In this document: one piece after another, positions 6,097 to 37,457 of the stretch
Layout: each line of letters starts with the position of its first letter
Numbering within the stretch: position 1 is the stretch's first letter
Source of the DNA: Azorinus chamasolen
Taxonomy: Eukaryota; Mollusca; Bivalvia; Cardiida; Solecurtidae
Assembly: GCA_963576725.1 (NCBI GenBank)
Contig: OY755241.1
Span: 24,340,449 to 24,404,448 of the forward strand
DNA length: 64,000 nucleotides
Direction of reading: 5' to 3'
Program-made: the position numbers and the translations under genes
Notes under the pieces: generated by a model
The model's input: only the letters and a program-made list of their open reading frames with translations
The model's database searches: none
What the model was told of the DNA's origin: nothing

Positions 6097-6146
6097 TGAG
6101 ATTAATACAAAATATAAAGTTCTACCGTTAGAAACGTCATTTTTGT

Positions 6147-9100
6147 TCACATCATGTCTATATTTCTTTCGGTCTTCGAACGCTTGCTGGTATGTCTCGA
6201 TGATTTGTCCTTTTTCGATTTCTTACGCTTTCCACTATCGGATTCTTCCCCGGATGATTCTTCGGAATTATCTTCTTGCTCATCATCCTCGTTTTCCAAC
6301 GTGCTAGATGCATCTTCCTTCTTATTCACTGCGCTTTTACTCAAAGATAATGGTTGGGAATTTTTTTCGAAGCTAGTAGCGACGTTCCTGGCTTTTTCGT
6401 CTTCTTTCTTCAGGGTATCGCTGATCAGACTCTCGAAGTCCAACTCGCTTTCTTCCTCCATAGCTTCTTGCTCCTCTGTCGCTTGCTTCACGGCTCGGTC
6501 GTACAAGTCGTCTCCCGGTTTTTGTTTCAATAAGACCGCTTTCAGCATGGTTCGTACCGACTGGTATTGTAACATTTCTTGTATGTTCAGCTGCATAGCC
6601 AGCATTTCCACGTGACTATCAACCACCTCCGTGAGGACGGTCTTCTTATTACCAACAACGTTTCCGTCGTCATCTATATCGTACTCGCAAGATACCGCGC
6701 ACTCTATCATTTCCGCCACATTTGGGTTTGTGCAGGCCTGAGCTAATGTTGTTCACTATCTCAACGGCCGATAGTCCGCTGGATATGAACGAAGAAGCCT
6801 CTTGCCTTACATCCGTAAATTTATCCATCCCGCCCTTGTATCTCTCTGAGGGTTTCGCCACAGGAGTAGCAAACAGGCATCCTCTGATCGGTTTGCATGG
6901 AGTGTGTCTCTGGTTCTTGGATGCCAGGTGATACCACATATGGTCATTCATATGGATGTAATCATCCACGCTCGTGGAATAGACTCTATCTTTCATGTTT
7001 CCCGACATAGACGACGGGTAATCCGCTATGCTGAATCTCGTGTACAGTACCACGCCTCCAGAGTCCGTGATCTCTTCATCGTACATCCCGTTGTCGGGGT
7101 ACAGCACGTAGTTGTTCTTGACATCACTGTTGATGTTTCCCGTTAGCTTGTTGTAGTGAACGTAGGAAGCGACTTTCGTCTTCCTCTTCGCTCCACTCCG
7201 GAATCAATCCTGACTTGTGCATCACCGATGCGGTAGCCATCTGATCCAGCAGCGTATCCAAGCTAGATATAGTCATGTTTTCCGACAGGTAGGTCATGTG
7301 GATCATTTCGCTATTGGCTATCAGCTTCGTAACAGCGTTGAGGAGGTTAGTGTTATTCGCGTTCCCGACCTTTATGTTCAGGTGCTGACTCGCGTGCCCT
7401 TTCAGAACCGTCACTATTTTGTTCGCCAGTATAGCGATGTGCTTGTTCTGAACCATGATCTCGGTAGTCTTCATGCCTCCTCCGCTCGCTCCGTTTCCTT
7501 GCATCTGACCGTACGCATTGTGCTGTTCTCTTTCCGGTAACACCGCCATGAATAGCTTTATCTTCTCGTTCGACGATTCCAGACGCTCCTTGTGAATCTG
7601 GAGTTCCCCGTTGCACAATTCCGGAGACGCGCATGTAGTCCAGGTAACATCGGAGCTAGAGACATCCTTCTCCTTACCATCATCATCATCATCATCCATG
7701 GACACCATCTTCTTCGATTTGGGTACCATCTTAAACTGTTTTAGCTGACACGGAATCCTCTTTTCATTTACTACCATCGGGTTGACTCGCAGAGTGTAGT
7801 ACTTGGTGGTTTGTCCTTCCACCATCAGAGGGAAGATGTTATCTTCGTTACATCCCATATCGTACTTCGACACCGCCGACATGATTCGTCTCACGGTATT
7901 GGTACGGGACACCATATTGCTGAGAACACCCAGGTACTTCAGTTCAGGAGTGGCTTTACTTATCCACACGGCTTCTAGCTTCTTACCGTCTACGGAGTCT
8001 ATGTCCGGGCAGCACACGGACTTCTTCACGTATTCCCCGTAAGCTATCACGTTATTGACGAACTGCGTAAACACGGAGATGAAGTCCATCCCTTCTTTCA
8101 TTCCGCTGGCTAAATTAATACTCTTCAGAATCAGATTTCTCGCTCCTATGATCTGAGGATAGAGCAGGGCTTCTATATACTCTTTTGGCGTCATGTTACC
8201 TTTTTTGGCTTCATCCACTTTAACTTGGGCAGCACCAGCGAATGTGGAGGACATATTGGTGGTTGAAATGAACAGGCCTCCCACAGCCTGCATACCATCC
8301 TTATCCTTGTTCCTGACTATCCTGGACGCAGTGGTCATAGTATCGAAGCATATGCTAAGCTTCTCTTTTTTGCAATACGGGCACCTTTCCCTTATTCCTA
8401 CTCTAAGCTTGTCCACTGCTGCGTATAGACAGTAGGATAGCCATGCTGCCATGTCTGCGTCTCGACAGGCTGTGTGATTGACCAAGACTTTCGCTATGGA
8501 CCCGGGAACGGACTCGCATATGATGACGGATTCTTTCTTGTTCTTCCTATTCAGCATCCAGTCGGGAGCTTGCACGTTCGACATGGTCTTGGTACAGAAG
8601 ACTGATCCAGCGAACATCATGCACATAGCTAACCCGTTGTCATCCACATTTGTCGCCGCCGATTTATTACCGGGTTCCACTTTCATGTAATCAGAGACAT
8701 TCAAATCCGTGTACAGACAGTTGTCCGCTCTAGCGTTGATACCTGCCGCTAAGATATTCAATCTCAAGTCCTCGGTATCGTCTTCTTCTAGTTGCATGCA
8801 TTTGCTGTTGCACATATTAGCGATGTACAGCATCTTCGCCATGTCCCTGTCTGTCCCTGTCTGTCATGTCTCCCATGCCTTCTGATAGGGTGACTCCCAT
8901 ACGTTCGTGCGTCATCAGAAACTTGATTATATGATTGTTTTCGTTCTTCAGAACGGCAGTATTCTCTTTCTTCCCCGAAGAAACGGGTACCAACATAGAC
9001 TTGACCGGTATCGGAAGATGGTCATGTTCCTCGCTCGCACCCTTTACACACCTTTCGTCCTCTCTCACGTTCAGTCTAAATGGCTCTGACTTGAAGACGA

Positions 9101-9743
9101 ACGGTTGGTCGTTGGTGACGAGACTCCAGAAGCTCAGTTTAGTTACGTACATTACCATCACTTCTCCATCTTCCAGTCTTTCTAGAATCGAATCGGTATA
9201 GCCAGACATCTTAGCCTTGTACGGCTTGTTCCTCTCCGTTATCTCATCGGGCTCTCCAGCATGATGCATAAGAGACGATTTAAGGTCTCGCTGTATGGTC
9301 AGGGCTCCCGTACCTATCACCTCCTCGTATCTACCCTTCAGTGAGTTCTTAGAAATCACTATAGCGTACGACACGAGGTTGTTGTTTACGTGTTTTTTTT
9401 TACTCTTAGCGTTTTCCTTCTTGTTTCCCGTACTGTTTTTATATACCTCACCCATCATGGTGGGCATGATATATTTTGGCATAAGACAGGCCGCCGGAAC
9501 GTACATCACATTATCGCAATTTGGGAACGCCACCGCCGTATAAGTCTTGAAGTTAATCAGGTTGTTGCCACTGAACACATCTTTCTCGTCACACACGTAT
9601 CCTACATAGCTAGAATCATATAGTCCGACCGTCTTCATAATATTGTCGGGTTGTAGTCTGGCTTCCGATTGGTTTCCGGCTTTGTCGTTCGACATGGTTG
9701 GTACTGGAGGTGGGCAATAAAGAAGGTTGCGGCGGTTCAGCAC
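6147..9743 (-). pseudogene. Large viral gene split by three frameshifts; possible DNA-binding protein
   Basis: Four adjoining reading frames (9743-8817, 8842-7124, 7107-6670 with an open lead-in, 6719-6147) form one gene of about 1200 codons. The first break is a tandem 10-bp unit ACAGACAGGG near 8846-8870. The second lies near 7170-7190 and the third near 6712-6720. Visible features are a CPYCKKEKLSIC zinc-binding-like cluster in the second piece, and an acidic stretch followed by a Lys/Arg-rich tail at the C-terminus that looks like a nuclear signal. Length, Cys cluster and nuclear tail recall the herpesvirus major single-stranded DNA-binding protein, but no diagnostic motif was recognised; a capsid protein is another possibility. 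The gene ends 50 bp from the left virus junction, with no room for a viral poly(A) site. Confidence 0.6.
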
Positions 9744-9780
9744 TCAGCACGAGTAAAGAGGGACCGACTGATTTCACACT

Positions 9781-9799
9781 AATATATACATAACATTGG
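9781..9799 (-). promoter_or_regulatory. TATA and CCAAT boxes of the large gene
   Basis: On the minus strand a CCAAT (9799-9795) is followed by TATATATT (9788-9781). The reading frame opens at 9743, with a second possible start at 9695 (MSNDKAGNQ). The spacing fits a herpesvirus-style promoter. Confidence 0.5.
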
Positions 9800-11266: not shown

Positions 11267-11273
11267 AGCGCGA

Positions 11274-11369: not shown

Positions 11370-12574
11370 CTACATAAATAAGAAAGTATTGTCGTAGTCT
11401 TCACAGTTGTCTACGTGCTTCTCGAACATCCAAGTACCCCCATATCCGCATTCGTTTCAGAGTAGTAGTCGGCACAGTGGTGGTAGTAGATGTGGTGCTC
11501 TGAGTAGTAGTCGACACAGTGGTGGTAGTTACGAGCGTTCCGTAGGCTTCTATCTCGCATATCACTAAGGCACCTTGCTTTTTCACTCTAATAGCGGAGA
11601 CTGATCTCGTGAGGTCTATAGGTATAGTGTATACACCGTTACCATTATCCCCGTATGTGCCAGTAGAAGGGTCTTCGTGTTCTAACACTTCTATGACACC
11701 AGCGCCTAATCCTATTGTCAAGATGAGTCTAAATCCTTTTAACTGACCAGAAGTGTCCCCTCGTCCTCTGATTATCACCTGAGTTAATTTGTAAAAGTCC
11801 ACCAAATCAACTTTCATAGAGTTTGTACCAGTATCAAAACTCCCCGCGCAGCAACCGGTTCTATCCCAGTCGACGTTCGGATCCGTATTGTTAGGAGCGC
11901 ACCCGTCTACGGCCAATGCGCCCACCCACTTGTACCCTAGATAATCCGCCTCGTTGGTTGCATCGACATGTTTCGCGTAGGCTAAGTTCTCCGGTATCGG
12001 CGAGGTCGGATGAAAAGCAAACGCTTCCACCTCACATATAGTGAGCGGTTGGGTCGAGTTTACTATGATATTCGTTACAGGACTATGTGGAATGATTCCT
12101 GCCTCGACGTATTTGGTTTGTACTTCCTCATTAGTAGCTGACGTACTTAAGCCATCGTAGACTCGAGTCATATTACCGGCCGGACCCTTCACGTATACCT
12201 CGAAGTTCGTCAGTTTAGATCCATACACATATATTCTGTTTAGTATATGTTGTATATCCAATTCTACCGTCCACTCGTTATATCCACTCGCTTGACTGCT
12301 ACTACAGCAATCGGATGTACCTGCATTGGACTGTAAAGGGATACACCCGTCCACCGCGTACTCCGACATATAGGAGTGCCCTAACAATTCAAACGTGCAT
12401 GTTTGAGTAGTAGTCCGCTGAAAATGCCACATTTAGCCGCGATGGAGACATAAAGGGTTTATACACGTTGGTCACGTAATTAGGAGGTTGATCATGACAC
12501 ACACTTGAGTCAATTTGTACAGTAGAAGACAGGAGACCAACTATCGTCAGCAAAACCAACCCTGTGGATTGCAT
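11370..12574 (-). pseudogene. Secreted fucolectin/F5-8C-like protein with mucin-like tail, frameshifted
   Basis: The gene begins at 12574 with a clear signal peptide (MQSTGLVLLTIVGLLSSTVQ). A first lectin-like domain starts at LNVAFSADYYS, but that frame stops at 12389 and continues in a second frame (12432-11401) with AVDGC. A second domain starts NLAYAKHVDA and repeats the AVDGC pattern followed by a CC pair. This layout resembles fucolectin/discoidin (F5/8 type C) carbohydrate-binding domains. A Thr/Ser-rich mucin-like stretch follows. The last codons read differently in another frame that has two further cysteines and ends at 11370, so a second indel in the Thr repeat is possible. It is probably host-derived, secreted and glycan-binding. 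Confidence 0.65.
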
Positions 12575-12655: not shown

Positions 12656-15600
12656 TTATAAATAATATAAAATAGACCGAACACCCGAGACGGGCGCTTT
12701 GGGCAATTTCCTCTTCGAAGCTGTCTTTTTTTTCGTAGGAGGTTTAGGAAGTTGCAGCTTCGAATTCTTACCGGTAGGCTGCCATCGATTAACAGTCCCC
12801 GGGTCAATCCTATCAGTAGAAGGAGACGTCAGGTACGTTTCTATGTTGCATACAGCTACGGGGGTCTTGTCAAATCGTCTCTTCAGTGCTGTCCGCTTCT
12901 TCTTATCGGCCACCTGCGCGACTCTGATAAATTCGTTCAGCTTCTGTCTCGACGACCCCCCGACCCACGAATCCATAAACGTGCCTTCCGGTGACAATTT
13001 CAACTTCTTCACTTTCTGAACGGTTTGTTTAGAAAACGATTGTCTCTTGATCGGTGTGGGTTTAAGGTGAGCGTATTCATTCTGGTGTTGCACGTCTCTG
13101 CTACACACTCCTTTTGGACGGTCAATGATTAACCGAGCGAAGTGTTCTCTGGTGATGTGCTCAAAGTAATGGCAGCGAGACAGATCTAGAAAGAGCTCCG
13201 TTATTATGGAGGAGCATTCCGTCAATCCTTCTATGATGTCCACTATCTCCGACATGATGTCGTGCATAATCTTCGGCAGGCACAGTTTCAGATTTTGAGT
13301 AAGTACTTGGTTCTGCGTCGCAAGCTGCCAGGCGTGCTCGCATCCTTCCGCGGGCTCCACGGGTACCACTTTTACTTTTTCCTTCTCGAAGGCTGACTCC
13401 TCTCCGCTAGCTCTCAGTCTTTGTATCAAATCGTACTTCACGTCGGACGGTCTCAGCTTGGATTTGTCTATAGATAGCTTTATAGCTAACATCTCGTCTA
13501 TGTTCGTCACAGACCCGTTCAGTAGAGGTATGAGTATGTCATCTCTTATGAAGCAGTACATTTCCAGCAGTATGTCAGGGAGAAACTCGTTGTTGGACTG
13601 GTACGAGGATACTATATCTACCATCTTGCGTAGTATCTTCTTCTCGAAGCCGCTGGAATTCTTGTTCTTAATGCTCATCCCTTTAGCTACCGTTTTCTCC
13701 CCATCTAGAGGGATCTTCCCGCAGTACTTCTTGCACGTGTGAATGACGAACGGATCGTAGGTGTCCTTCGTTTGCCCTATATTCATCAATGGAGCCAACG
13801 GTAGGTTGGGATTGAATTTGGGTATAATCACCCTATTCATAAGAGTCTCTAGCATTTTAGCTCTAGCTACCATCTTGTTACCCACATTGTTCATCTTTTC
13901 ACAGAACGAATTCGCGGCCTGTCTAGCCATCAGTATGTCTGCCGGTAGTATCACTTTCTGGTTGGGATTCATGACCTCCGCTACAATGTTCGGATCTCCC
14001 GACAGCAAATCGTCAGTTTCAATGAGAAAGCTAATGGCTATGCTGTCCGTGTCACCGTACACTATAATGCAATTGTCCTTGCCGAAGTTTTCTATGGATT
14101 GCTCTATCATCGATGCCGTAGTCTGTCTTCCGGTAGCCGTGACTACGGCTCTGAATCCCCCTCTCATCAAAAGGTCTAGGAGTCCGTACAGCGAATTGAG
14201 AGCATATTTCTTGGCCGTGGCTAAGTCTTCGTACAGCTTGTACAAGGCTTTAAGTCTCTTCTTTTTTACGGGGTCTACACATACTTCGTATTGTTCATAA
14301 TAATCTTCACTTTTCATTTTGTCTTTCAACCTGTCCTCAAACACTCTGTTTATGGCCTTGCATATGGGAGATTTCCTCACTTTCTGGGTCAGTATAGCGT
14401 AGCAGTTGTTATCAACGCACTCTTCGAACTCTTCTCCGAAGTCCGAATAAGTCTTAAAGTCATCGCACCTTTTCGTGGTAAACCAGCGGTAGTGTACTCC
14501 TTCTATCAGCTCCGGATGCTCGGCTATCTGTTTCGCTGAGAGTCTCATCCCGTCCGCCAGATTGTCTGCGTTTATAGCGGACGGATACTCCGACGTTATG
14601 TCCATAAACATCACGCACCGGTTAATGCCGGGGTTAGGAGTGACAATCAAGGCCCCGTCAAACTGTAGATTTTCGATCTCCACTTTCTTGACTCTCTCAT
14701 ACAGAGCGTCTACAATGTCCGAGTACAGGTCTTCGTATTCGGATACTCTAAGAGGAACCGTTGCCTTGTATATCTCCCTGATGAAGTCCAAAGATATGGT
14801 CCATCTCGGTAGAATGTGACGTTTCTCGGCACGTTTCACCGTGAAGAAGTTCTCTTGAGCGAATTGTTTCAGCCACTCGTGCTCACCCTTGGTCGTTCGT
14901 TTGTGGTACTTCTTGAACTGTTTCATGATCATCTCTAGATCTTCGTGAGGACTCAACCCACCCCCTTTTCTTCTGATTGTAACCAGGTACACCAGAAATT
15001 CGTCTAGCAGCGCTACGTGCTCGGTTCCGTACAGCATCTTGAACTTGATCCTGTAATCGGCGAACTGTTTACGAATGTACGCCTCGTCCTTAGGTAGGGT
15101 CAGCCACCACAGGTAAGACAGGAGATGCTTTGTTGTGAACTTGGTACTCGCGTCCTTGTTGCATTCTAAATCTAAAAATGTGTCCATCACAGCTATTGCT
15201 TCCTCGTATCCGATACTGTCACGCATCTTGTCGGGAAGAGGATGTGGTATTGTCAATGGCATGGGAGCTATCAGGGTGCCTGTGCCACCTTCTTCCTCCT
15301 CACCGCTACTATAATTTGACGAGTCTATCCCTGACATGTAGCTCATTTTTGACAGATACGTTTTCATTCTACAGTTTCCGTTTGAGAAATCTACGCAGAT
15401 TTGATTCGATCTACTGTTGTCTGTTAGGTCGTTCACTCGACTTAGATCGAAGTTATTTAGAATAATTTTCGTCACGTTCTTGGCTATTATCTTGTACTCG
15501 AAGCTAGCTTTGGGACGATTAACTTGCCTAGACTTCACTCCGTCCATTTTTTCGAACCTGTACCTCAGCAGTGTCGCTTGATACGATTGCCTCCCGCTCA

Positions 15601-17575
15601 TGGTTAGATCGTACGGACTGCCGAAGATCCTCTGCTTGGATACAAACAGCTTGATCAGTTTGTCAAATCTAGCGTTCAGCAGGCACTCCGTAACCCAGGT
15701 ATCTACCATCGCGTACTGCATGAACAGCGGGTCTCTTGCTTTAAATTTCTCGTGAATCTTGGTGTGTGGCAGATCTATTTTGTGGACGCCTAGTACAGAT
15801 TGGCACATGTCATTTAGCGCTTCCGTACTGGTAGACAGGTTGGTCATGAGGTCAAGATTGATAATTGCTTCCCAGTCAAGATAGTCCGATTGGAGTACGT
15901 GAGGTGGTATCATGCTGTGTTCTCGATCCGTTCCGGGAATCATCAACCTTAAGTCTCTGTGTCTGGATATGAGGTTAGACCTGATGGACCTGCCTGACCT
16001 TGTCAAATTCAGGGGAGACATGGTGTCATATACGTATCCTTTAGACATTGTTAATCTCAATTTGGAACTGTTATCGAATGGATCAGGCCAGTACCGCGGA
16101 TCGTGTCCGTAGGCTTTCTTGAACTCCGCGTGCATGTAAGCTCTGATCATGAATTTGTTGTCGTACTCTAACCCATTGTACTGTCCTAGTATTACCGGTC
16201 TGTCTTTCTTGAGTGTCTCGAAAAAGATACGAGTCAGTTCGGCTTGGTCTGTACACTTGATGACGCGAGTACGGATCTTGTCTCCTTCGACCATCAATTC
16301 AGTTCTACCTCTCATATGGTCTGCTAGCTTCGGCTGATTTATGGGCAAGTCAGCGTATCCATCGGGTGTATCTGATCCGAAGTATTCGTCTCTCTTTCCA
16401 AACTTGTCAAAGTCAGGAGTCATAGTCGTTAGATACAGCGAGCTCTTCATGCACCCGGTCCCGCCGTAATTCACGTACGACAAGGCTACTATCTTGTTGG
16501 TTACCCCATCTACATCTGTCTTCCGTTTCACCACGCTTTCTATATCGTACACGGAATACTTGATGGTCTTCAGAAACTCGTCTGTGTAATCGTACGTCTC
16601 TTTGGGTATGAACGGCAGGTCTCTGGTCTCTCCTAGATACGGAATCTCCCTGTCTATCCAGTCGGGATTGGTGAATCTATTGACAGTGTCTTCCTTGTCG
16701 ATTCGGCTGTTGTACATGTACCTATTGTCCAGTTTATTGAAGTCCAACACATTATTGTCGGCAAACAGATTCACATCTTTCACGTTCTGGCGATTGTTGG
16801 CGCATTTGCGACAGACTGGTACCATTTTGTCATTGTCATCGATGGTGGCTACCCAGTTCGTGCTAATTTCGGGATGCATCTCGCAGTAATTGCCCGCGTA
16901 GGAGCATTCTTCTACGAACTCGTCCAGGAGATGGTGTTGGTTGTCATACAAATGACGGTACTCCCCTTCTTTCTTCTGAATGCAGGACGGATACTGGTAC
17001 GGTCCGTGTTTCTTTGTGAACTCGACAGCGTCCTGTTCCGAGTGGAAAATTATCTTCTTAAAGTATCCTTTCTCTCTCTCTCCCGTAACTGGATTGATGC
17101 ACCCCGGATCTACCAGCTCGAATTCTTCGTCGGTCGGGCAGTCAGTCTTCTCGTATATGCTGTATTTGGGATTCAAGCACACGCATCCCCAAGTCTCCGA
17201 CGTGTCGAGCTCTCCGTTCTCCAAAATAGGGTATCCCATCAGCAGCACGCTGTCTATTGAAGGCCATTGATACTGGGGTGTTCCGTTGTCAATATTCTGT
17301 CTGATCAAAGAATACAAGTCGGGATTCACACTCTCCAGGTAGTGAATATTCACCGTTCTGTATATAGCGGATAGACCCGTCTTGAACGGTAACTGTCTGT
17401 ATACGAACCCTTTCCCCGTTCTCTTTGAAGATGGTGCAGCAGCATCTTGTTCAGTTGGCACATTTTGTTCGTGGTCGCCCCCGAAGCTACTACTCCACCC
17501 GTCTTCATCGTCCCAAATGTCGTCAAAATTGAACTCGTAATCGGACTCTTCCGTGTCATCCTTGCGCTTCATCAC
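12656..17575 (-). CDS. Family B DNA polymerase catalytic subunit (herpesvirus type)
   Basis: This intact 1639-residue protein replicates the viral genome in the nucleus. Exonuclease motifs are Exo I YDIESV (about 343), Exo II YNGLEYDNKF (466-475) and Exo III YAMVDTW (621-627). Polymerase motifs are A DITSEYPS (992-999), B KKYALNSLYG (1122-1131) and C YGDTDS (1173-1178, two catalytic Asp), with KKYCG near 1282. It is longer than typical herpesvirus polymerases (about 1000-1250), with a long acidic N-terminus, an insertion between Exo III and motif A that includes an acidic SSGEEEE stretch, and a Lys-rich C-terminal tail that may bind a processivity factor. It starts at ATG 17575. All catalytic residues are present, so no decay is evident. 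Confidence 0.95.
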   Translation of the reverse strand: MMKRKDDTEESDYEFNFDDIWDDEDGWSSSFGGDHEQNVPTEQDAAAPSSKRTGKGFVYRQLPFKTGLSAIYRTVNIHYLESVNPDLYSLIRQNIDNGTPQYQWPSIDSVLLMGYPILENGELDTSETWGCVCLNPKYSIYEKTDCPTDEEFELVDPGCINPVTGEREKGYFKKIIFHSEQDAVEFTKKHGPYQYPSCIQKKEGEYRHLYDNQHHLLDEFVEECSYAGNYCEMHPEISTNWVATIDDNDKMVPVCRKCANNRQNVKDVNLFADNNVLDFNKLDNRYMYNSRIDKEDTVNRFTNPDWIDREIPYLGETRDLPFIPKETYDYTDEFLKTIKYSVYDIESVVKRKTDVDGVTNKIVALSYVNYGGTGCMKSSLYLTTMTPDFDKFGKRDEYFGSDTPDGYADLPINQPKLADHMRGRTELMVEGDKIRTRVIKCTDQAELTRIFFETLKKDRPVILGQYNGLEYDNKFMIRAYMHAEFKKAYGHDPRYWPDPFDNSSKLRLTMSKGYVYDTMSPLNLTRSGRSIRSNLISRHRDLRLMIPGTDREHSMIPPHVLQSDYLDWEAIINLDLMTNLSTSTEALNDMCQSVLGVHKIDLPHTKIHEKFKARDPLFMQYAMVDTWVTECLLNARFDKLIKLFVSKQRIFGSPYDLTMSGRQSYQATLLRYRFEKMDGVKSRQVNRPKASFEYKIIAKNVTKIILNNFDLSRVNDLTDNSRSNQICVDFSNGNCRMKTYLSKMSYMSGIDSSNYSSGEEEEGGTGTLIAPMPLTIPHPLPDKMRDSIGYEEAIAVMDTFLDLECNKDASTKFTTKHLLSYLWWLTLPKDEAYIRKQFADYRIKFKMLYGTEHVALLDEFLVYLVTIRRKGGGLSPHEDLEMIMKQFKKYHKRTTKGEHEWLKQFAQENFFTVKRAEKRHILPRWTISLDFIREIYKATVPLRVSEYEDLYSDIVDALYERVKKVEIENLQFDGALIVTPNPGINRCVMFMDITSEYPSAINADNLADGMRLSAKQIAEHPELIEGVHYRWFTTKRCDDFKTYSDFGEEFEECVDNNCYAILTQKVRKSPICKAINRVFEDRLKDKMKSEDYYEQYEVCVDPVKKKRLKALYKLYEDLATAKKYALNSLYGLLDLLMRGGFRAVVTATGRQTTASMIEQSIENFGKDNCIIVYGDTDSIAISFLIETDDLLSGDPNIVAEVMNPNQKVILPADILMARQAANSFCEKMNNVGNKMVARAKMLETLMNRVIIPKFNPNLPLAPLMNIGQTKDTYDPFVIHTCKKYCGKIPLDGEKTVAKGMSIKNKNSSGFEKKILRKMVDIVSSYQSNNEFLPDILLEMYCFIRDDILIPLLNGSVTNIDEMLAIKLSIDKSKLRPSDVKYDLIQRLRASGEESAFEKEKVKVVPVEPAEGCEHAWQLATQNQVLTQNLKLCLPKIMHDIMSEIVDIIEGLTECSSIITELFLDLSRCHYFEHITREHFARLIIDRPKGVCSRDVQHQNEYAHLKPTPIKRQSFSKQTVQKVKKLKLSPEGTFMDSWVGGSSRQKLNEFIRVAQVADKKKRTALKRRFDKTPVAVCNIETYLTSPSTDRIDPGTVNRWQPTGKNSKLQLPKPPTKKKTASKRKLPKAPVSGVRSILYYL

Positions 17576-23915: not shown

Positions 23916-24650
23916 TTAGTCCAGAAACAGTCTTATAATACTCGTCACCTTTCTCCTACAAGTAGGACACTCTTTGGTCTTCTGAGCCGTTTTGCTTATG
24001 CACGTTCCGCAGTACGTATGCCCGCACTCGACCAAGGCGTATTTTCTCTTGCGATCGACGCATATGCCGCACTGCAGTTTTTCTTCGTCCGTTGTCTCGT
24101 CATCATCCGGATTCACTGTGGCGATAGGTGGAAGTGTAGGGAAAGCAGTGGCAGCTGCAACGGGTGGAGGCGAAAAGAAAGGTATCTGAGGTACACCGTT
24201 GCTGCTACCGGGTACTTGTGTGAGAACGGTAGGATTGATAAGAGGTAGACTACCGCTCTTAGCTCGCTCCGCTTTTGCATCACCCATTACTCTACGGAAA
24301 CACTCCCAAAAATGGGTGTCCAGTCGATACAAAGATAATCCTTTCATAATCAACAAGCACGAAGGCATCTTGAACGTGGATTTTGGATAGGTCCATAAAG
24401 GAACGACATTCCACGTTTTGTCTAAGGCAGCTTTCGTGATTTCCATCTCCGTTAAAACCATCAGAGTCTCGTCCGTTATGAAATGTTTAGTAACGTACAG
24501 GAATGCTCTCCCGGATGATTTGCAGGCCGTCGAGAGGCTTGGGAAGAAAGTATACGGCCAGATGTCTCCGTATTGACCCTCGGTACTTCGAATGAACTCT
24601 ACCACGGCCGCCTCGTCGGGCTGAGCGAATACTATCACTGCGTCGCACAT
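23916..24650 (-). CDS. TIR-like domain plus C3HC4 RING finger protein
   Basis: The protein has 244 residues. Residues 1-125 look like a compact TIR domain: DAVIVFA strand at the start, RAFLYVTKHFI (48-58), an acidic helix around TEMEITKAAL (67-76), NVVPLW (81-86) and a closing HFWECFRR box (113-120) like TIR box 3. A Pro-rich linker follows. A C3HC4 RING finger (about 194-231) carries CGICVDR, ECGHTYCGTC and CPTC, typical of E3 ubiquitin ligases. The RING call is strong and the TIR call is by pattern only. The pairing suggests a protein that joins TIR-containing adaptors and promotes their ubiquitination, but no function is shown. The start is ATG 24650. Confidence 0.72.
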   Translation of the reverse strand: MCDAVIVFAQPDEAAVVEFIRSTEGQYGDIWPYTFFPSLSTACKSSGRAFLYVTKHFITDETLMVLTEMEITKAALDKTWNVVPLWTYPKSTFKMPSCLLIMKGLSLYRLDTHFWECFRRVMGDAKAERAKSGSLPLINPTVLTQVPGSSNGVPQIPFFSPPPVAAATAFPTLPPIATVNPDDDETTDEEKLQCGICVDRKRKYALVECGHTYCGTCISKTAQKTKECPTCRRKVTSIIRLFLD

Positions 24651-26467: not shown

Positions 26468-28586
26468 ATGTTATCAGATATAATAACTCCGTTCGATAAA
26501 TCCAAAGATGACATTATTACGAATCTCGGGCGGTTCATCAAAACGACTACAAACAAGCAAGAAGGGTCTATAGTAATCTGCGACAGTTACACTGACGAGT
26601 ATACGAGCATGGTGTCATCATTACCACCAGAGGGAGTAACAGAGCGGAAAATCCTTATATTGTGCGGGAACGAGAGTCGAGTACGTTACTTGAAAAAAAT
26701 GGACATAATTACGATGAGGAAACGGAAGACCACTAAACCATCCTCATTCAAGTACGCCGTTAACTTTAAGCAAGTTTTGTCTCACTATACTCATCCGAGA
26801 TTGGTGACTAGTCTTCGTAGCTTGAATAATTTTGGAGGCAAGAGCGCGGGAGAGAAGATCATCTTCTCTATGCAATACGACCTGTTAATCATTGATTGCG
26901 GTCTAAGGACTCTCTTTCACGATATGTACTATTGCGCTCCCTTTACCTCGAAACGTACGCTAAAGAAGTACGCCCAGATCATTCGAGCCTTGATATTCAA
27001 CTGTCACACGGTGGTGTTCACCAATGACAGGTACGCACCAGCCGCTAATCATCTATCAGCCTTGAAGAGGTTTGTAGGGTTTCATCACAAAAAGATTTTC
27101 TTCGCTAACCTAGGAGAAGGAGATATTGAACGAAAGGAGAATATAGTAGTGACTATATGTCACAGCAACATAGCGTCAGATATAGACAAAGTCATACGAA
27201 CCACTCTACCGTGTAACAGACGGGATGCGTCCTCATCTCATCTCGATGGGCCGTAAAACACCATTCATTCATTCATTCATTCATTCATCTCAGCTAGTAC
27301 AGAAAACAAACGATCCTATCTATAGAATGAGTATCATAACAGAGTTCTGCAAGCTATACAATACTCGGATCGATGTGAAAGAAGGAGATATCACCTGTAA
27401 GCTAGTAGACTTAATACTAACGCACAATGCCGAAAGGAAGAAAATGAACGAGAAAGCGACATCCGTGATAGTAGTGTGTCAGTCGATGGCTCACGTCGCA
27501 CAGATGTACGAAATGTTATCATCTATCGTTACAAGACGCGTGTCCTTGACAAAGTCATTCGAAGGAATACAAGTAGGAAGAAAGCGCTCTATAGAGGGAG
27601 AATACGTCTTATCGTGCGATTCTAAACGTACTCTCGACATAACACTCACCTTCCTGCAAAGCGAAGAAGAAACCTTCGAACGATGTGACGTCATGTTCGT
27701 ATATTCGAACGATAAGTTTGCGAACCACACGTCACTGTTTCGACTACTGAGAGCCACTAGAAAACTGTCCAACTGTCGGGTGTACTTGAGAGCAGAGATG
27801 CTATCGAAAGGATGGCTACGATCGAAGAAGACGGCAGATAAATTATACTTGAACGGGGGGTTAATGGAAAAGTCGAATAATATAGACTCGCTGAACGATA
27901 TAGAAAGGAGAATATTGATATCCTCGGATAAGCTGTACGAGAAGATTTTCGCCTCAGCTATGACATTTGAACGAGAAGGAAGCGTTATAGAATACCACGA
28001 AAAGACCGATTTTAATGTGGTGTCTAAACTAGGCTCCTTTTACAAGTCCTTCGTAGCGGATCGTATGAAAGACCACTGGAATTGCTTGTCCACTTGCTAC
28101 AAGATTCTCACGGAAGACACTAGTCGTCAAGTACTATCCGTTCTTAATAAGATAAACGTTATATTCGGGAAACCAGACGCGTTACTTGTTCGGTTTATAG
28201 AGACGCTGGAGTCATTAAAGGACGAGAACGGATTTCCTATAGACAAACTAGTGCTGAGTCGGTTCACTTATAGATTCTTGTCCGATCGTGTCGCTGAAGA
28301 GTGGATATCCGTACAGACACCCGAAGAGTTCGAGACGCACCGCAGAGACATCTGTGCTTGGAAACGCGCCGTGAATACATCCAACACGGAGCTATTAGAT
28401 AGATTGGCCGACAGGATGACCGCGAAGTACAGGGATGTCTACTACAGCCAATCTGGGGGGGAGGTCGAGAAGCATAGGATACTTCTGGAGTATTACTGCA
28501 GCGCTCAGAGATCATCTATCAATATAACCAGATCCGAAACGAATAGAATTCTGTACGCTTTGCGAATATTGATAAACGAACGATGA
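26468..28586 (+). pseudogene. Helicase-like viral gene split by a 45-bp retroelement tail
   Basis: Two ORFs (26222-27256 and 27225-28586) form one gene of about 690 codons interrupted at 27240-27284. The frame is continuous across the site once the insert and one target-site copy are discounted. The first half has MQYDLLIIDC (Walker B-like) and a following HTVVFTND strand. The second has SVIVVCQS, CDVMFVYSND and a FRLLRATRKL segment resembling late motifs of superfamily 2 helicases. No Walker A GKT motif is visible, so the N-terminus may be lost or the family wrong. A helicase or origin-binding role is a low-confidence guess. ATG 26468 is chosen; the open frame reaches back to 26222. Confidence 0.5.
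27240..27284 (+). mobile_element. 45-bp retroelement 3'-end insertion in a viral gene
   Basis: The insert contains TCGATGGGCCGTAAAACACC followed by ATTC repeats, exactly the 3' end of the flanking retrotransposon family (compare 61480-61518). It is bordered by TCATCTC at 27233-27239 and 27285-27291, a 7-bp target-site duplication. Insert plus duplication is 52 bp and so changes the reading frame. Confidence 0.9.
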
Positions 28587-29146
28587 ACTCGTCCAAGACA
28601 GTTTTCGAGGTGATAGTGTACGTGGTAGACACGGACGTGAGTTCTGTCGAAAACGTGAAATGCAATCTGAATAAACTGACGGAAGTTTATAAGAAGGCTA
28701 TAATCGTGAAGCCCGTCATTTTAAGCGTGTGGGAAGACATGAATCGAGAAAAAGTGTGCTTCCACGCGAAAGCTAGTTCGGTCGAATGTTGCTACACAAA
28801 ACCGCTGTTTCTACACAAACACGCCGGGAATCTGAGCAGAGACTTACCCTTGAAGATACCTCAATCGTTTAGTAGCAAACGACCGAACGTTCCGTATTTC
28901 CTAGGATGTCAGTACGAAGCGGTAACCTTTACTAGAGACCAAGTGGGAGCCGAATGCGTCTTCATCTACCAGAAAATGCAGCGCGGAGTTTGGCAAGTGA
29001 TCGCACAATTGCTACCACCTCCCGATCAAATTACTGGCGACATAATGTTGACGAGCGACCCGAATAGCAAAAAAAGTATTTATGGATTAAACAAGCAAGT
29101 TACTACAGAGGTAAATCGTTCTTTGTTAGAATTGACATTAACGTAA
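28583..29146 (+). CDS. Viral protein of unknown function, 187 aa
   Basis: The start codon overlaps the stop of the helicase-like gene (ATGA), suggesting a shared transcript. The protein has strand-like segments (VFEVIVYVVDTD, ECVFIYQKM, WQVIAQLLPP) and a Cys pair (VECCYTKP) but no signal peptide or membrane segment. No family was recognised. An AATAAA at about 29209-29214, 60 bp after the stop, may end this transcript. Confidence 0.6.
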   Translation: MNSSKTVFEVIVYVVDTDVSSVENVKCNLNKLTEVYKKAIIVKPVILSVWEDMNREKVCFHAKASSVECCYTKPLFLHKHAGNLSRDLPLKIPQSFSSKRPNVPYFLGCQYEAVTFTRDQVGAECVFIYQKMQRGVWQVIAQLLPPPDQITGDIMLTSDPNSKKSIYGLNKQVTTEVNRSLLELTLT

Positions 29147-29225
29147 GGGAGAGGATATTACCCGTGTCCGTTTTATCCCAATTGTTGTCCCTCATGTTTG
29201 TCGATTCACAATAAATGGACTAATC

Positions 29226-32200
29226 ATGAAGGGAGTCGGAGTGTTGTTTTTCATTTACTATTTCTTACCGCTAGCTAAAGGGTTCGGATTCTCCAACGTG
29301 GTGTTTTACCCGGAAAACACGCTATACGGAGATACTGTCAATCAGCGCGTGAAGATCAGGGGAACTTACCAGAACCACGTATGGCATGGACTGTCATCTG
29401 CTGAGCAACAGTCCTTACAGCAGACGAGAGCTGACTGGGATACGAATCTCGGGTTCGCTAAAGAGTTTTACCTACATGTCTACGTCTGCGCGGCCAATGC
29501 TCCTCAGATAGTGGTGGATCTGTCTTCTACCGCCGTGGCTGACCTGGTACACGACAATATAGAGGCCTTTAAGCAGGGTCAGGGAAACACTCAAATGAAG
29601 GATATCTTAGACTTCACGAATAGGGGTTGCTCTAAGTTATTCATACAACAACCAGCCACAACCCTCGATTTGGATTTTGCGTACGAACATACGTTTGCTT
29701 ACCATCACCCCGTACTGTTTGTGGATCCATTCGGATACAGTTCGTTCAATTACGTACAGAAGCGATCCGACGACAGGAGCAACGATCAGGCTACCCCTTT
29801 GAGGTACTGCGAAGGAAACGAGTTCTCCGGAGAGATATACTCTATCGGAAAGAGACCTGTATGTCCTGACACTCACGACCGCGACAACGGAGAACACACG
29901 ATGGGAAGACTGACCATGTACAAGGCGAACATAGTAGCCGTCGAGCACAAAGTATACTGGTGCACCAAAACGCAGACGCACGTCAGCTCGGGCAGGAGAT
30001 TCTTCGGTAGCACGTGGGATAACAGTCCTCTCGTTTCGTGGCATTTTGTACCGACTGAAGTAGAATGCTGGAAATGGGTGAACACTCACAAGGCTTCCTC
30101 TTTCGGAGGCTCACACAGCCCTAATACAGAACTGAAGAAAAGTACCGAAAACTCCTTCGGGACCAACAATGATAAGAGCTTTGGTTATCCGTATTGCGGT
30201 TCAGAACCTCACGATGTGTACGACGCGGTCTTAGTAGAATCCAAGCTGACGGTTTCGATGCCTAGTCTGGAAATATCCACTCCGTGGGGTAAGATTCCCA
30301 CGAACAAATTGTACGACAATACGTACGTAATAAAGGGGAAAGGCAGATTGGTGTGGAAATCCTTCGTACACGGAGACATATGCACTCACGTCCCTTACGC
30401 TTCTTCGGACGCGGAGTCCATCAAATACGTTCACGAGCAGACCAGGCACGAAATCTCTAACAGTAAAGAATCCTCCCACACCACTTACTTTATCTCGAAG
30501 AAGCTTAAGCTGTTCGAAGCCGTAGACAGCAGTCAGGAGGTAGACAGTACGGTGAAATACAATTGTATAACCAGACCTACGAACTCTAAATTGTACAGCA
30601 TGAGCAGCGAAGATGTGCTTCTGAAGTTTGAAGACGTTTCTGTGAGGCCTTTCGTGAACATGCATCCGCAAAGCTCGTTTAGTAAATTGATGGTCTCGTC
30701 CGACATGAAAGTGATTACCACCGACTTAACGAACGACGATGCTTCTAAGGACACCGGAACGGGACAGGCAGGCAGCAGTCTTTTGATAGACACGTGGAAA
30801 ATGCAAGCCGGAGCCATAAACAAAACCATGAATTATAAAACTAAGGATATAGATGACGGAACTAAAGAATCGGATCATTTTATGAAAGCAGTAACAGCGA
30901 CTAGCGCAGCGAGTGGTAGCGCGACTCCAAATGAAGTTCAGGACTATAACGCCTTCATGGCAGAGCAAACCGCGAAGAAGAACGCGGCTCGCATTGCGCA
31001 CGAATTGTGCTTACAGTCTCAAAAGGACTTCGACACGATGAGCCGAGCTCTCGCTGAAAATCCTACCCGAGTCATAGTGCAGAAGACTAAGCGTCCGGTG
31101 GAGGCGAAGTACGCGGGATCTAACTTTTACTCGATTCGTCATTGCTCGGATGTTACTATAGTCAAGGTGATTCCCACCTTGCTCACCAACAGTTCCGTGG
31201 TAGTAGACGTAAACGGCAAGACGGAAAGAGTGAACGATCTAATTTCAAAATTAGCGGTAACCCCGTCCAACTTAACATGCTTAGCCGGAGTGTTGGTGGT
31301 GTTCAAAGTAGGAGAAGCCGGAAAATCTATGCATAAAGAAGAGATGGTGGGACAGGTGGATGGCGAAGGTATTGTTCGCACTAGGAGCGCCAAACTATTG
31401 GAGGCCTGCAGCAAAAACTCGATGACCAGTAATTACAAGCTATTCTCGTTTAGGAGGAAGATCCATGCGTTTGTAAACTACAAACAAAAGTACGAAATAT
31501 CCCACGATCAATTTTACAAGAAGAGGCACGAGAAACACGAGAAAGCTCAAACGACTCTCAAGTCGAACGGAACGACTGCCCCTAAGTATGGTGAGTTGGA
31601 CGAAATAGTAAACAAGATTAGGTTCCTGAATGAGAAGCCACCTCCCGTTCTATCGGGGTACTTATTTAGCCCATCCTCGTTGTTCGGTTCTAATATATAC
31701 ACGGTCGCTGAATTACAGTCTTTGCCTATAAGTCTGGGCGATATAGTGGCGGAACAAGCGTACCTTAGAAATTTCGACCACGTAATGAATGACCAGTTAA
31801 TTAGCGATTATCACGAAAGCTCTACCGACAACTCGTTGGACGCTGGAGACTTTTTTAGCTCGGTAGGAGACGGAATCAGCGACGTCTTCAAAGGAGGAGC
31901 CGACGCTGTATCTAAACTCGTACACGAAGGCGGAAACCTGATTCACGGAGCCGTGAAAGATGGTGAAAGTGTGTTCAAAACGGTGGACAACACCCTAACG
32001 AGTACCCTATCGTCCCTGATAGTACCTATAGCGGTAATCGGAGGCCTAATATTGGTAGGAAGCATAGTAGCGTACGTACTGTACAGAAAGTATATGACCA
32101 CGGGTAGCATATTCCCTAAGAAGAAAAAGAAGAAGAGGAAGCAGAAGAGCAAGAGACAAGATAAACGGAGAGATAGCGTGAGTTCGGACACGAGCACTTC

Positions 32201-32267
32201 CGTCTCTACCGATGCGTCGGAATCTGGCACTGCTTACTCCGATACCGACAAGACGCCTCTTGTTTAG
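29226..32267 (+). CDS. Glycoprotein B-like class III fusion protein
   Basis: This intact 1013-residue type I membrane glycoprotein is the likely viral membrane fusogen. The signal peptide is residues 1-19. The ectodomain has many Cys and aromatic-rich loops. Residues 575-612 form a long helix with AARIAHELCLQSQKDF, followed by ENPTRVI (611-617), KRPVEAKYAG (622-631) and Cys640; this series matches the domain III-IV signature of herpesvirus gB. Residues 873-925 are an amphipathic Gly-rich membrane-proximal region with DFFSSVGDGISDVFKGG. The transmembrane segment is about 930-953, followed by a Lys/Arg cluster (965-982) and a Ser/Thr/Asp tail. No clear furin site was seen. The ORF stands alone on the plus strand between two strand switches. 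Confidence 0.82.
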   Translation: MKGVGVLFFIYYFLPLAKGFGFSNVVFYPENTLYGDTVNQRVKIRGTYQNHVWHGLSSAEQQSLQQTRADWDTNLGFAKEFYLHVYVCAANAPQIVVDLSSTAVADLVHDNIEAFKQGQGNTQMKDILDFTNRGCSKLFIQQPATTLDLDFAYEHTFAYHHPVLFVDPFGYSSFNYVQKRSDDRSNDQATPLRYCEGNEFSGEIYSIGKRPVCPDTHDRDNGEHTMGRLTMYKANIVAVEHKVYWCTKTQTHVSSGRRFFGSTWDNSPLVSWHFVPTEVECWKWVNTHKASSFGGSHSPNTELKKSTENSFGTNNDKSFGYPYCGSEPHDVYDAVLVESKLTVSMPSLEISTPWGKIPTNKLYDNTYVIKGKGRLVWKSFVHGDICTHVPYASSDAESIKYVHEQTRHEISNSKESSHTTYFISKKLKLFEAVDSSQEVDSTVKYNCITRPTNSKLYSMSSEDVLLKFEDVSVRPFVNMHPQSSFSKLMVSSDMKVITTDLTNDDASKDTGTGQAGSSLLIDTWKMQAGAINKTMNYKTKDIDDGTKESDHFMKAVTATSAASGSATPNEVQDYNAFMAEQTAKKNAARIAHELCLQSQKDFDTMSRALAENPTRVIVQKTKRPVEAKYAGSNFYSIRHCSDVTIVKVIPTLLTNSSVVVDVNGKTERVNDLISKLAVTPSNLTCLAGVLVVFKVGEAGKSMHKEEMVGQVDGEGIVRTRSAKLLEACSKNSMTSNYKLFSFRRKIHAFVNYKQKYEISHDQFYKKRHEKHEKAQTTLKSNGTTAPKYGELDEIVNKIRFLNEKPPPVLSGYLFSPSSLFGSNIYTVAELQSLPISLGDIVAEQAYLRNFDHVMNDQLISDYHESSTDNSLDAGDFFSSVGDGISDVFKGGADAVSKLVHEGGNLIHGAVKDGESVFKTVDNTLTSTLSSLIVPIAVIGGLILVGSIVAYVLYRKYMTTGSIFPKKKKKKRKQKSKRQDKRRDSVSSDTSTSVSTDASESGTAYSDTDKTPLV

Positions 32268-34500: not shown

Positions 34501-34573
34501 ATATAGTGGATGGATGTATCAAACATGTACACAAGTTACCCCTTTTCGCTCGTAATATATAATATTGACAGCC

Positions 34574-35272
34574 ATGGAGGTTACGGATAAAGAGTTTTTG
34601 AGACAAAACCATGTGAATCTGATGTGGTTTTTTGTCAAGAATTCTCGGACTTTTGAACGCGTATGCGAATCGTTATTCGAAAAGGGCGTTTTGACGGAGT
34701 GTATGTTAGCTTCTATTACTAGTGTATCTGACGTAAGCGATAGAGTCTATGCCTTCTTACTCCTGTTAAAGAATATGGACGAGAAGGCCATGGGAATATT
34801 CTTAACCGCTTTTCCAGAATGGATTGAAGTCATAACAGTTCCGCGTATGACTACGGATGATTATGACAAAGAGTCGAATTGCTCTCGTATGGAAGAAGGA
34901 GGTGATGAATTGGCAATGGCTAACAATGATATGGAGATAGAAGAAATACGAGGCGATTCGGCGAACGACGGACTAGGGAAATACACAGTATCAAAGGACG
35001 ATTGCATCTACATGTCGAGCATCATAGGTTTAGGGTGGGAATTTATAGGCGCCGAATTAGGTTTAAGTTATACCCTCGTTAACCAAATCAAAGCCGAGAA
35101 TCCGCACAACTGCCAAGCTGCAATATTAAAAATGTTAGACACGTGGAGAACTTCTTCTGAAGGAGGAAAAGCTTGCGATCTCTTAAAAGCTATAGGCCAT
35201 GTCGGAGGAGTTGACTTATATGAAGCGGAAACCTACTTGCAAACGACAATGTTAATGGTTGGAATTGAATGA
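34574..35272 (+). CDS. CARD plus death-domain protein (RAIDD/CRADD-like architecture)
   Basis: The protein has 232 residues from ATG 34574 (the frame is open to a TTG at 34565). Residues 6-83 resemble a CARD: FLRQNHVNLM helix, FEKGVLTE turn, a KNMDEKAMGIFLTAF helix pair. An acidic linker of about 60 residues follows. Residues 145-222 resemble a death domain: GLGWEFIGAELGLSYTLV, IKAENP, MLDTWRTSS and LLKAIGHVGGVDLYEAETYL, including the conserved Trp residues and the NP turn. CARD plus death domain is the architecture of the RAIDD/CRADD adaptor that links death signalling to caspases. The ORF is intact. An interfering adaptor role is inference. It shares its promoter module with the NADAR gene. 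Confidence 0.78.
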   Translation: MEVTDKEFLRQNHVNLMWFFVKNSRTFERVCESLFEKGVLTECMLASITSVSDVSDRVYAFLLLLKNMDEKAMGIFLTAFPEWIEVITVPRMTTDDYDKESNCSRMEEGGDELAMANNDMEIEEIRGDSANDGLGKYTVSKDDCIYMSSIIGLGWEFIGAELGLSYTLVNQIKAENPHNCQAAILKMLDTWRTSSEGGKACDLLKAIGHVGGVDLYEAETYLQTTMLMVGIE

Positions 35273-35608
35273 TAAAAGGAAATCGTGGACCGTAGTGACT
35301 TACGGAGATTTTGCCAACGTTATTATTGAAATTGGTCTAAATTCCACAGTATACCAAACTTCGGACCGATCGACAGTACGAGTAATGACAATATGAACTT
35401 TGTTTTTATAATAAGATTGGTTTTCTATTTTCTAAAAAAATGTGGTACGAGAATAAACTGAAACAAAACTAAGTCTAACTTTTCGTTGTTGTGATTACCC
35501 TATTGATGGTAATTAGGAACTATAAAAGGGTATATATAGAGAGATATATTTTCTTATTTTATTGTTGCTGTTGTAACGTATAGTTGAGTGACTGAACTGT
35601 TAGCAGCT
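35273..35608 (+). promoter_or_regulatory. Intergenic region and NADAR gene promoter
   Basis: The first 220 bp are AT-rich and noncoding. The second copy of the promoter module follows: ATTACCCTATTGATGGTAAT (from about 35495) and TATAAAAGGGTATATATAG at 35521. ATG 35609 follows about 85 bp after the TATA box. Confidence 0.6.
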
Positions 35609-36199
35609 ATGAGTTCTCCTCCTAGTATCCCCAATACACCGGTATGCTTTTACTCCACCAGGAAGAACCAGTGGATGGCTTTCTCGAACATGCACGCGAG
35701 CTATTTCGAAGTAGACGGTGAGAGATTCAGTAGCGTGGAGAAATACTTCCAGTATATGAAAGCTGTCGTATTCAAAGACGATCACTACCGAAAATTTATA
35801 ATGGAGATGTGCGCTCCCAAAGATTGTAAAAGAGCCGGTAGACGTGTCAGGGGATTCAAGAAGCACGTATGGAATGCCAAGTGTGACGAGATCATGTATA
35901 CTGGACTGAAAGCCAAGTTCACGCAGAACGCAGATTTGAAGACACTATTGTTAGAAACTGGAAATCGAAAACTGGTAGAAGCCTCCAGGGACTATTACTG
36001 GGGAGCTGGAGCGAGCGAAGTGAAGATAAAGAAACAATTTGGAAGACTTCCGGGTAAAAAGCAAAATGGGAGTCCTGTTAATGAAATTGCGAAAGGAATT
36101 AAGGGAAAAACCTTAACTGGATTAGACAGATTAGAACAGTCTGTGTTACCCTATCTATCTGTGTCTTTCACATGTAATTACCCTTTTACCTCTTATTAG
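35609..36199 (+). CDS. NADAR-domain protein (YbiA/DUF1768 family)
   Basis: The protein has 196 residues from ATG 35609 (the frame opens earlier at a GTG at 35588). Residues 11-145 match the NADAR fold: VCFYSTRKNQWMAFSNM, EKYFQYMKA (44-52), GRRVRGFKKHVW (77-88), GLKAKFTQN (99-107) and LLETGNRKLVEASR then WGAG (114-134). NADAR proteins act on ADP-ribose or NAD derivatives; some remove ADP-ribose from modified nucleobases or hydrolyse related N-glycosidic bonds. Most key blocks are kept. The C-terminal 50 residues are basic and unrelated. A viral role in reversing ADP-ribosylation or altering NAD signalling is inference. Confidence 0.85.
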   Translation: MSSPPSIPNTPVCFYSTRKNQWMAFSNMHASYFEVDGERFSSVEKYFQYMKAVVFKDDHYRKFIMEMCAPKDCKRAGRRVRGFKKHVWNAKCDEIMYTGLKAKFTQNADLKTLLLETGNRKLVEASRDYYWGAGASEVKIKKQFGRLPGKKQNGSPVNEIAKGIKGKTLTGLDRLEQSVLPYLSVSFTCNYPFTSY

Positions 36200-36318
36200 T
36201 GTATAGTACTCTATATATATTTGGAGTATATGGAAAATAGCAATCAGAACTACTAAAGGACTTGGACACTCCACGCTTCATGTTACCAATCTCAGTATAA
36301 AAGGATAATAAAGCAAAC

Positions 36319-36723
36319 ATGGTGCTCGAAACCGATGAAGCCCAACTACGGAAGAAGCTCTTAGAGGAAAACACGAATGAAGGAGACGAACACTCCTCCA
36401 GTATCGACACCACCCAGACTAAAAACGGTAATAAGAAGAAGCGGCGGCGGAATAAACAGGAGAAGTCCGCGGTATCCCAGCCCAAACGCAAGATGGCGAA
36501 CGACACCTTAAGACGGACGGCGACCGAGCGGGTCATCACCACCGGTGGTGAAGGTAGTTGTAATGATAATAATGATGAAGACCGGGCTGTGGATAGTCCT
36601 CACCTTCCTCCCGCCTCGGCCACCACCGGCAGCAACAGAGAAGAAGAAAAGGAGCGGGAACAGCATCTACCTCATCGGAGAGCAGACGAAGACCACCGAC
36701 AGACCGAGCAGCGGGTTGTTTAG
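36319..36723 (+). pseudogene. Basic N-terminal ORF in frame with the histone-fold ORF
   Basis: The 134-codon frame starts at ATG 36319 and ends at TAG 36721-36723. It is in the same frame as the H3-like ORF, with open codons between them. It has a Lys/Arg cluster (NKKKRRRNKQEK) and a low-complexity Arg/Glu/His tail. It may be the N-terminal tail of a longer histone-like protein broken by one nonsense codon, or a separate small basic protein. A TATAAAAG at 36296-36303 is unusually close to this ATG; TATATATAT near 36212 is an alternative. Confidence 0.45.
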
Positions 36724-36789
36724 ACGAAGCAGCGGCATCCAACGGTTCAGAAGAGAAGGCGTAGACGCAACCCCGGCCAAGCCGCCCTG

Positions 36790-37077
36790 ATGGAGATCAA
36801 GCGTTACCAGAATTCCGTGGACTTCTTGCTGCAAAAGACAGCGTTCCAGCGGCTTGTTCGCGATATAGCGGACAGTGTAAAACTGGGTCCGGATCCCCTA
36901 AAGTTCTCGAAGTCCGCCATGGACATGCTGCAGAGTGTGTGCGAGGACTACCAGGTGCAAGTGTTTGATACGGCCAGCGTTATCTGCTGCGTGGCCGGTA
37001 AAAGGAAGACTCTGATGGAAGGAGACGTGAAGCTAGCCGCCTCATTGATTGACAGGACCAAGAACGCGTTCTCTTAA
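36790..37077 (+). CDS. Histone H3-fold protein, viral
   Basis: From ATG 36790 the ORF codes for 95 residues that follow the H3 histone fold in order: alpha-N MEIKRYQNS, alpha-1 TAFQRLVRDIADSVK (17-31), a loop with an extra GPDP insert, long alpha-2 FSKSAMDMLQSVCEDYQVQV (39-58), KRKTLMEGD (71-79) and alpha-3 VKLAASLIDR (80-89). The frame extends upstream to the TAG at 36723 through KRRRRNPGQAAL, which aligns with the end of an H3 tail. It is strongly divergent from canonical H3 and not a host replication histone. It lies inside the viral segment, 380 bp from the right junction. A chromatin-mimic role is inference. Confidence 0.78.
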   Translation: MEIKRYQNSVDFLLQKTAFQRLVRDIADSVKLGPDPLKFSKSAMDMLQSVCEDYQVQVFDTASVICCVAGKRKTLMEGDVKLAASLIDRTKNAFS

Positions 37078-37457
37078 TTAGAACAGACCGGACCGGGAGA
37101 GGAGTGTACAACTGAGAACCGAGTGATATTGGAAATAGAGAGAGACGGAATGACTGAGTTATAACGATTGGTGTATATGTGATTTCATGTGTATATAGAA
37201 TGTTACCATTTTGTTCATTATCATTTGTTAGAAAACTGTACTTTACTGTAAAATAAGATGTATAAAATAGAGAGAGAAACTTATCCATTAGTGTTGTTAT
37301 TACTTAGTAGGGCGTATGTACACTTCCAGAGCCCCATATTAAATTATGTCGCGTTTCCATATTGTTTCTGTCACTTACTTACACTCTATAGGGTAATAAA
37401 GAATCCTCAAAAATTGTTAGTCGACATTACCTTTTTCCACCGAACTTGCTTTCACTG
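37078..37457 (+). other. Viral 3' end region up to the right junction
   Basis: No gene is seen. The region contains GGGTAATAAAG (AATAAA at 37395-37400, a possible poly(A) signal for the histone-like gene) and ATTACC near 37428, repeating the viral ATTACC/GGTAAT theme. Retroelement sequence resumes at TTAGCTCTTG from about 37458. Confidence 0.55.

Follow-up and report, generated by a model that had tools for sequence, protein, structure and literature searches.

Origin of the herpesvirus-like segment

How did some 31 kb of herpesvirus-like DNA come to lie inside a retrotransposon of a bivalve, and is it a resident of the chromosome or the genome of an infecting virus caught in the assembly? 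The question is raised by a stretch of 64,000 nucleotides of Azorinus chamasolen (here the window; scaffold C7:24340449-24404448, forward strand, of a 1.72 Gb genome in 137 contigs), in which a dense block of viral genes at 6097..37457 has a host long interspersed nuclear element (LINE) on both sides. Herpesvirus entry into germ lines is rare, and to our knowledge few invertebrate herpesviruses have been described. We conclude that the segment is very probably an endogenous, partial and internally rearranged herpesvirus-like copy that was captured by break repair inside the LINE. Besides this segment, a second and distant herpesvirus family occupies nine or more loci of the genome.

The segment interrupts a host LINE

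The interrupted LINE was compared with a second copy of the element in the window, at 57324-61517, which served as the reference. Its 5' part (3420..6096, + strand) is 99.70% identical to 57324-60000 across 2677 bp and stops at 6096, corresponding to 60000 of the reference. The 3' part (37458..38319, + strand) restarts in unchanged orientation at the equivalent of 60655 and is 99.65% identical to 60655-61517 across 863 bp, and 654 bp of the element are lost between the two. By Pfam the LINE encodes an endonuclease, a reverse transcriptase and an RNase H; the endonuclease and reverse transcriptase frame (3733-6099, + strand) belongs to the 5' part (RVT_1 1.8e-37), and the 3' part retains an RNase_H match (1e-5). 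An earlier, sequence-only reading of this DNA had placed one LINE family on both sides in the same orientation with 654 bp missing, and the alignment coordinates bear this out.

The integrated segment, as we delimit it, includes a few unmatched bases at each edge. Homology to a sister copy on scaffold C16, described below, spans 6100-37436, and the outermost bases, three on the left (6097-6099) and 21 on the right (37437-37457), have no match there. Comparison of the two window junctions revealed no target duplication, target DNA having been lost instead, and there are no runs of N within the window, which sits on a large scaffold. End joining at a break leaves target loss and no duplication, and a transposase does not leave such junctions. 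Because target DNA is lost, the edge bases are unmatched and duplication is absent, we read the junctions as products of end joining and not of a transposase. A double-strand break within the host LINE would have been sealed by end joining that cost 654 bp of target and left a few filler bases at the edges, and viral DNA may have served as the repair patch. Such a capture would have occurred in the germ line, and the window copy presumably no longer produces virus.

Gene density, polymerase and glycoprotein B

Stop-to-stop frames of at least 150 amino acids (aa) number 32 in the segment and together cover 84% of its length, whereas dinucleotide shuffles of the segment (n = 30) gave a mean of 0.73 such frames and a maximum of three. 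The right flank (38400-64000) has seven, LINE frames among these. The GC (guanine plus cytosine) content in 2-kb intervals is 0.39-0.48 inside the segment versus 0.35-0.41 outside.

Among the viral genes is a family B DNA polymerase, a 1639-codon open frame on the minus strand (12656..17575; PF00136, DNA_pol_B, 7.6e-15). It contains the motifs DIE, SEYP, NSLYG and YGDTDS, which we take to be exonuclease and palm motifs. Used as a single query it had no match in the PDB, and its residues 850-1500 had none among 5.8 billion proteins. Its one close relative in the genome is on C16 (99% aa identity, frame open); across 1630 aligned codons the two differ by one synonymous and nine nonsynonymous changes, which show no sign of constraint, though they are too few for a test.

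A 1041-codon open frame (29142..32267, + strand) encodes a glycoprotein B (gB)-like fusion protein, recognised by profile search and by its kinship to the gB of the second family, to which it is 23% identical across 910 aa. Taken alone the protein gives a weak signal: its Pfam match (5.8e-4) is below the cut-off, it had no PDB match as a single query, and its structure model (mean pLDDT, the predicted local distance difference test, 32) is too poor for use. A six-row profile built with its relatives is firm: 10 PDB sequences match it at E <= 0.01, led by a chain named ORF8, presumably a herpesvirus gB (4.9e-9), and one named envelope glycoprotein B (3.6e-8). Profile search yielded three related proteins, two of them unnamed ENA entries (58% and 45% identity) and the third DPMN_112118 of Dreissena polymorpha (56% identity over 63% of the window gB). 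Within the genome the single close relative is again on C16 (98% aa, frame open). The assignment stands at the level of the Herpesvirales, and the malacoherpesvirus type proposed in the sequence-only reading is a candidate affiliation; three IMG/VR scans returned 0, 1 and 0 related loci, the sequences of OsHV-1 (Ostreid herpesvirus 1) and HaHV-1 (Haliotid herpesvirus 1) not being among those compared. The dense viral gene block of the sequence-only reading, with its family B polymerase and its gB-like protein, is thereby upheld, the first by the contrast of 32 frames with the shuffled mean, the second by the DNA_pol_B match and the third firmly once the profile is used.

Pfam scans took in 21 window frames out of 32, together with 20 frames of the C16 copy, and they bear on whether the segment could have been carried by a mobile element of the Teratorn kind, in which a transposase is joined to a herpesvirus. 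The genome does contain more than one copy, and such fusions are known in fish (PMC10175614). In frame 26210-27253 there is also an integrase-like match, Phage_int_SAM_4, but it is very weak (E 0.031; 15.1 bits, where the cut-off is 27) and is not counted as evidence. No transposase or integrase domain scored above cut-off in the frames scanned, however, and with 654 bp of target lost and no target duplication at the junctions we regard a cargo origin as extremely improbable.

A sister copy on scaffold C16

The sister copy is on a different chromosome, where both its flanks and its gene order are unlike those of the window. Comparison of C16 with the window in 10-kb pieces gave 11 aligned blocks of at least 200 bp with substitutions of 0.15-1.09%, and some window stretches are covered twice, by blocks of both C16 arms. 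These inverted arms are 8.95 kb long and 99.36-99.85% identical; they could represent inverted repeats of the virus, a duplication that arose on integration or, in part, an effect of the assembly. Window positions 21442-24851 and 36353-37436 fall within them, and the former stretch, present in both arms of C16, is internal in the window, a rearrangement. The examined part of C16 lacks 2.7 kb of the window (18739..21441), which carry a 545-codon open frame, and the window in turn lacks 15.6 kb of the C16 copy. From the differing order it follows that the window copy is a rearranged fragment. The embedded viral segment proposed earlier stands, with the addition that it is a rearranged and partial copy and not a simple collinear stretch. 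We note that the 15.6 kb exclusive to C16 contains a cyclin-like gene (L010:7239-8270; PF00134 1.7e-10).

Some genes are broken and others intact, as had been claimed. A histone-fold gene (36301..37074, + strand; correspondence to C16 by alignment) is interrupted in the window copy, leaving 140 and 117 codons, and is open in both C16 arms (L013:8185-9363 and L018:5900-6673); the window polymerase and gB are open. A 52-bp insertion (27233..27284, + strand), mostly the 3' tail of a host LINE, interrupts a window frame that is open in C16, and the C16 viral block in turn holds a 5'-truncated LINE (L013:2963-4912), probably flanked by a 7-bp target duplication. In the assembly, then, the segment is contiguous with the host chromosome and has been altered by host LINE insertions, and these insertions in both copies argue most strongly that the viral DNA resides as chromosome. 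Together with the C16 sister and the lack of N, they support the sequence-only view of an endogenous element rather than free virus.

Several observations nonetheless weigh against capture of a herpesvirus by break repair. No capsid gene had a Pfam match in the 21 window and 20 C16 frames, which come from fragments only, and a genome-wide search at E <= 1e-3 with a single, distant second-family query, which could miss a diverged relative, returned no window-family terminase. Because neither terminase nor capsid protein was recognised, the herpesvirus identity of the window family depends mainly on gB and on kinship to the second family. Moreover, the right C16 arm stops at a run of 200 N, and the evidence for endogeny comes from the assembly sequence alone. 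Finally, the C16 counterpart of the window's left viral end has the LINE only ~470 bp away, an unexplained coincidence that tells against our reading because plain end joining fails to account for it.

The interrupted arm and the reliance on the assembly, as well as the open polymerase and gB frames, would suit an assembly chimera, in which DNA of an infecting herpesvirus was misjoined into host scaffolds. Such misjoining, or free virus, is hard to reconcile with two loci that have different junctions and orders, with host LINE copies within the viral sequence at both, with the absence of N from the window, and with a LINE gap of exactly 654 bp, and we hold it to be quite improbable. With the segment taken as endogenous, the open state of its polymerase and gB frames probably reflects young insertion rather than use.

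The coincidence at the C16 LINE is better suited to a different origin, whereby the window copy was made within the genome from a C16-type locus, by copying or recombination such as template switching between LINE-rich places, and not by a separate integration. In its favor, counting substitutions, the two copies agree at 98.9% or more of positions in the aligned blocks. Yet the position of the LINE at the joint is unlike between the two loci, and the window holds 2.7 kb that the examined C16 stretch lacks; we therefore think intragenomic copying unlikely, while giving it real weight, and continue to favor capture by break repair.

Tandem arrays are also present in the host flanks of the window, at 42899-43911, 50997-51492 and 63414-64000, with periods of ~155, 166 and 145 bp, and units resembling those of the second array (50997-51492) flank the C16 copy too.

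A second herpesvirus family

Among the matches listed in genome searches, a second gB, 24-25% identical to that of the window, occurs at at least eight loci, as does a second polymerase at 30-31% identity to the window polymerase. A terminase is present at nine loci (21 candidates scored), in every case without stops and with 99-100% protein identity. In the C19 copy Pfam recognises the terminase (DNA_pack_C 8.3e-20, DNA_pack_N 8e-9), the gB (1.1e-11) and DNA_pol_B (7.2e-38), all above cut-off, along with a protein kinase and BIR; two further matches, to RING (1.2e-5) and to a VP23-like triplex protein (Herpes_V23, 8e-5, 22.7 bits against a cut-off of 25), fall below it. The second-family gB matches a PDB gB at 1.8e-6, and of the 14 matches to the second-family polymerase 12 are relatives at 44-57% identity. 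Neither a major capsid protein nor a transposase was recognised in the 30 second-family frames scanned, which are only part of the element. The joint presence of a herpes-type terminase, a gB and a family B polymerase places this family in the Herpesvirales. The ~31% polymerase matches had also been considered as cellular polymerases, and this was rejected as the loci coincide with the second herpesvirus family.

The copies are closely alike. Among the six loci compared for each gene (15 pairs each) there are 1-32 substitutions in a polymerase region of 3612 bp and 3-25 in a gB region of 5380-5634 bp. The genome carries two distant herpesvirus families, the second of them at nine or more loci. 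A thrombospondin-type protein is common to both (L012:6284-7207 versus L030:1657-2409; 28.7% over 143 aa, 2e-8); its domain match falls short of the cut-off in the C16 copy, and in the second family TSP_1 narrowly exceeds it.

Direct repeats and lone repeats

On C2 the sequence at 31458051-31466123 is repeated in the same orientation at a distance of 138195 bp, with four substitutions in 8073 bp, so that the paired locus spans C2:31458051-31605246; the repeat is at least 8 kb long, the compared stretch stopping short of both its ends. Repeats elsewhere were counted with one 40-base pattern from the C2 repeat (<=2 mismatches), which samples a single point of the repeat. The pattern occurs 22 times in the genome and the pattern read backwards not at all. 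Sixteen occurrences form eight same-strand pairs, with spacings from 130,194 to 138,195 bp, on C1, C2, C4, C11, C13, C14 and, twice, C19, and gB, polymerase and terminase lie between the repeats at each of the eight. The second-family repeats are thus direct, not inverted. One occurrence without a partner lies ~21 kb past the C3 terminase, and five are lone repeats (one on C5, three on C16, and C19:287101) with no terminase match near any of them.

Retroviruses leave solo long terminal repeats, to which these lone herpesvirus repeats may be likened. They could be the expected residue of recombination between direct repeats, or else longer fragments or other remains. Two of them are within ~0.34 Mb of a scaffold end (C19:287101, and C16:74741168 of 75074636), and the paired copies on C2 and both of those on C19 are more than 12 Mb from either end. 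No TTAGGG arrays of two or more units were found in the stretches read, which stop short of the repeat ends. The two C4 repeats (C4:29633737 and C4:29765266) carry different variants of the probe, with zero and two mismatches, both members of the C1 pair having two; the C4 variants hint at possible recombination between copies.

We tentatively put forward a picture, plausible rather than probable, in which the germ line carries a recently multiplying second family, built as direct-repeat units spaced 130-138 kb, that may lose or gain its unique part by recombination and so give rise to lone repeats, the window being the broken capture of a different herpesvirus.

Other genes of the segment

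Further genes of the window segment include a RING-finger protein (23916..24650, - strand; PF13920 3.3e-11), a Death domain protein with a CARD-like match (34556..35272, + strand; PF00531 3.4e-6; PF00619 1.9e-4, below cut-off) and a NADAR-domain protein (35588..36199, + strand; PF08719 4.1e-35). These three look host-derived. A frame at 11401..12432 (- strand) has weak F5/8 type C-like Pfam matches below cut-off.

Comparison with known integrated herpesviruses

The literature searched contained no account of an invertebrate with a herpesvirus family that is multi-copy, bounded by direct repeats and accompanied by lone repeats; one survey of invertebrate herpesviruses outside that search (10.3389/fmars.2023.1159754) may describe it. 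If true, a genome with two families, one of them at at least nine near-identical loci with lone repeats, would allow tests of how herpesviruses come to be inherited far from telomeres and with no evident transposase, and the copies would be fixed references for invertebrate herpesviruses.

In a lancelet, an invertebrate chordate, the integrated malacoherpesvirus-like genome BelcheriHV-1 forms one 149.9-kb locus, and a second integrated genome is described in one other lancelet animal (PMC12373286). It shares with the window a large chromosomal herpesvirus block, a GC content above that of the host, repeat-rich flanks and discontinuous gene blocks. It differs in that we observe a 31-kb rearranged fragment in a LINE, a sister locus, and a second family at at least nine loci.

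Teratorn of medaka, with 30-40 plus about 5 herpesvirus genome copies (PMC10175614), parallels the second family as a case of many herpesvirus genome copies in an animal genome. Teratorn (also PMC5601938) encodes a transposase of the piggyBac type; the second family differs in its long direct repeats, and its 30 scanned frames, only part of the element, yielded no transposase match.

Inherited integrated human herpesvirus 6 (HHV-6) has a unique region of 143-145 kb between direct repeats of 8-10 kb, and it sits in telomeres, its repeats having telomere-like arrays close to their ends (PMC5660504). The layout of the second family, a unique part between direct repeats, is alike. The C2 pair and both C19 pairs are, in contrast to HHV-6, far from scaffold ends, and the stretches read, from which the repeat ends are excluded, lack TTAGGG arrays. 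Acipenserid herpesvirus 3 in sturgeon likewise combines chromosomal integration with terminal direct repeats, as the second family does, although its terminal repeats are TTAGGG arrays and its host is a fish (PMC12031113).

The named counterpart of the window gB is the gB-like protein DPMN_112118 of Dreissena polymorpha, and because the contig that carries it is 145 Mb long, it is probably integrated too.

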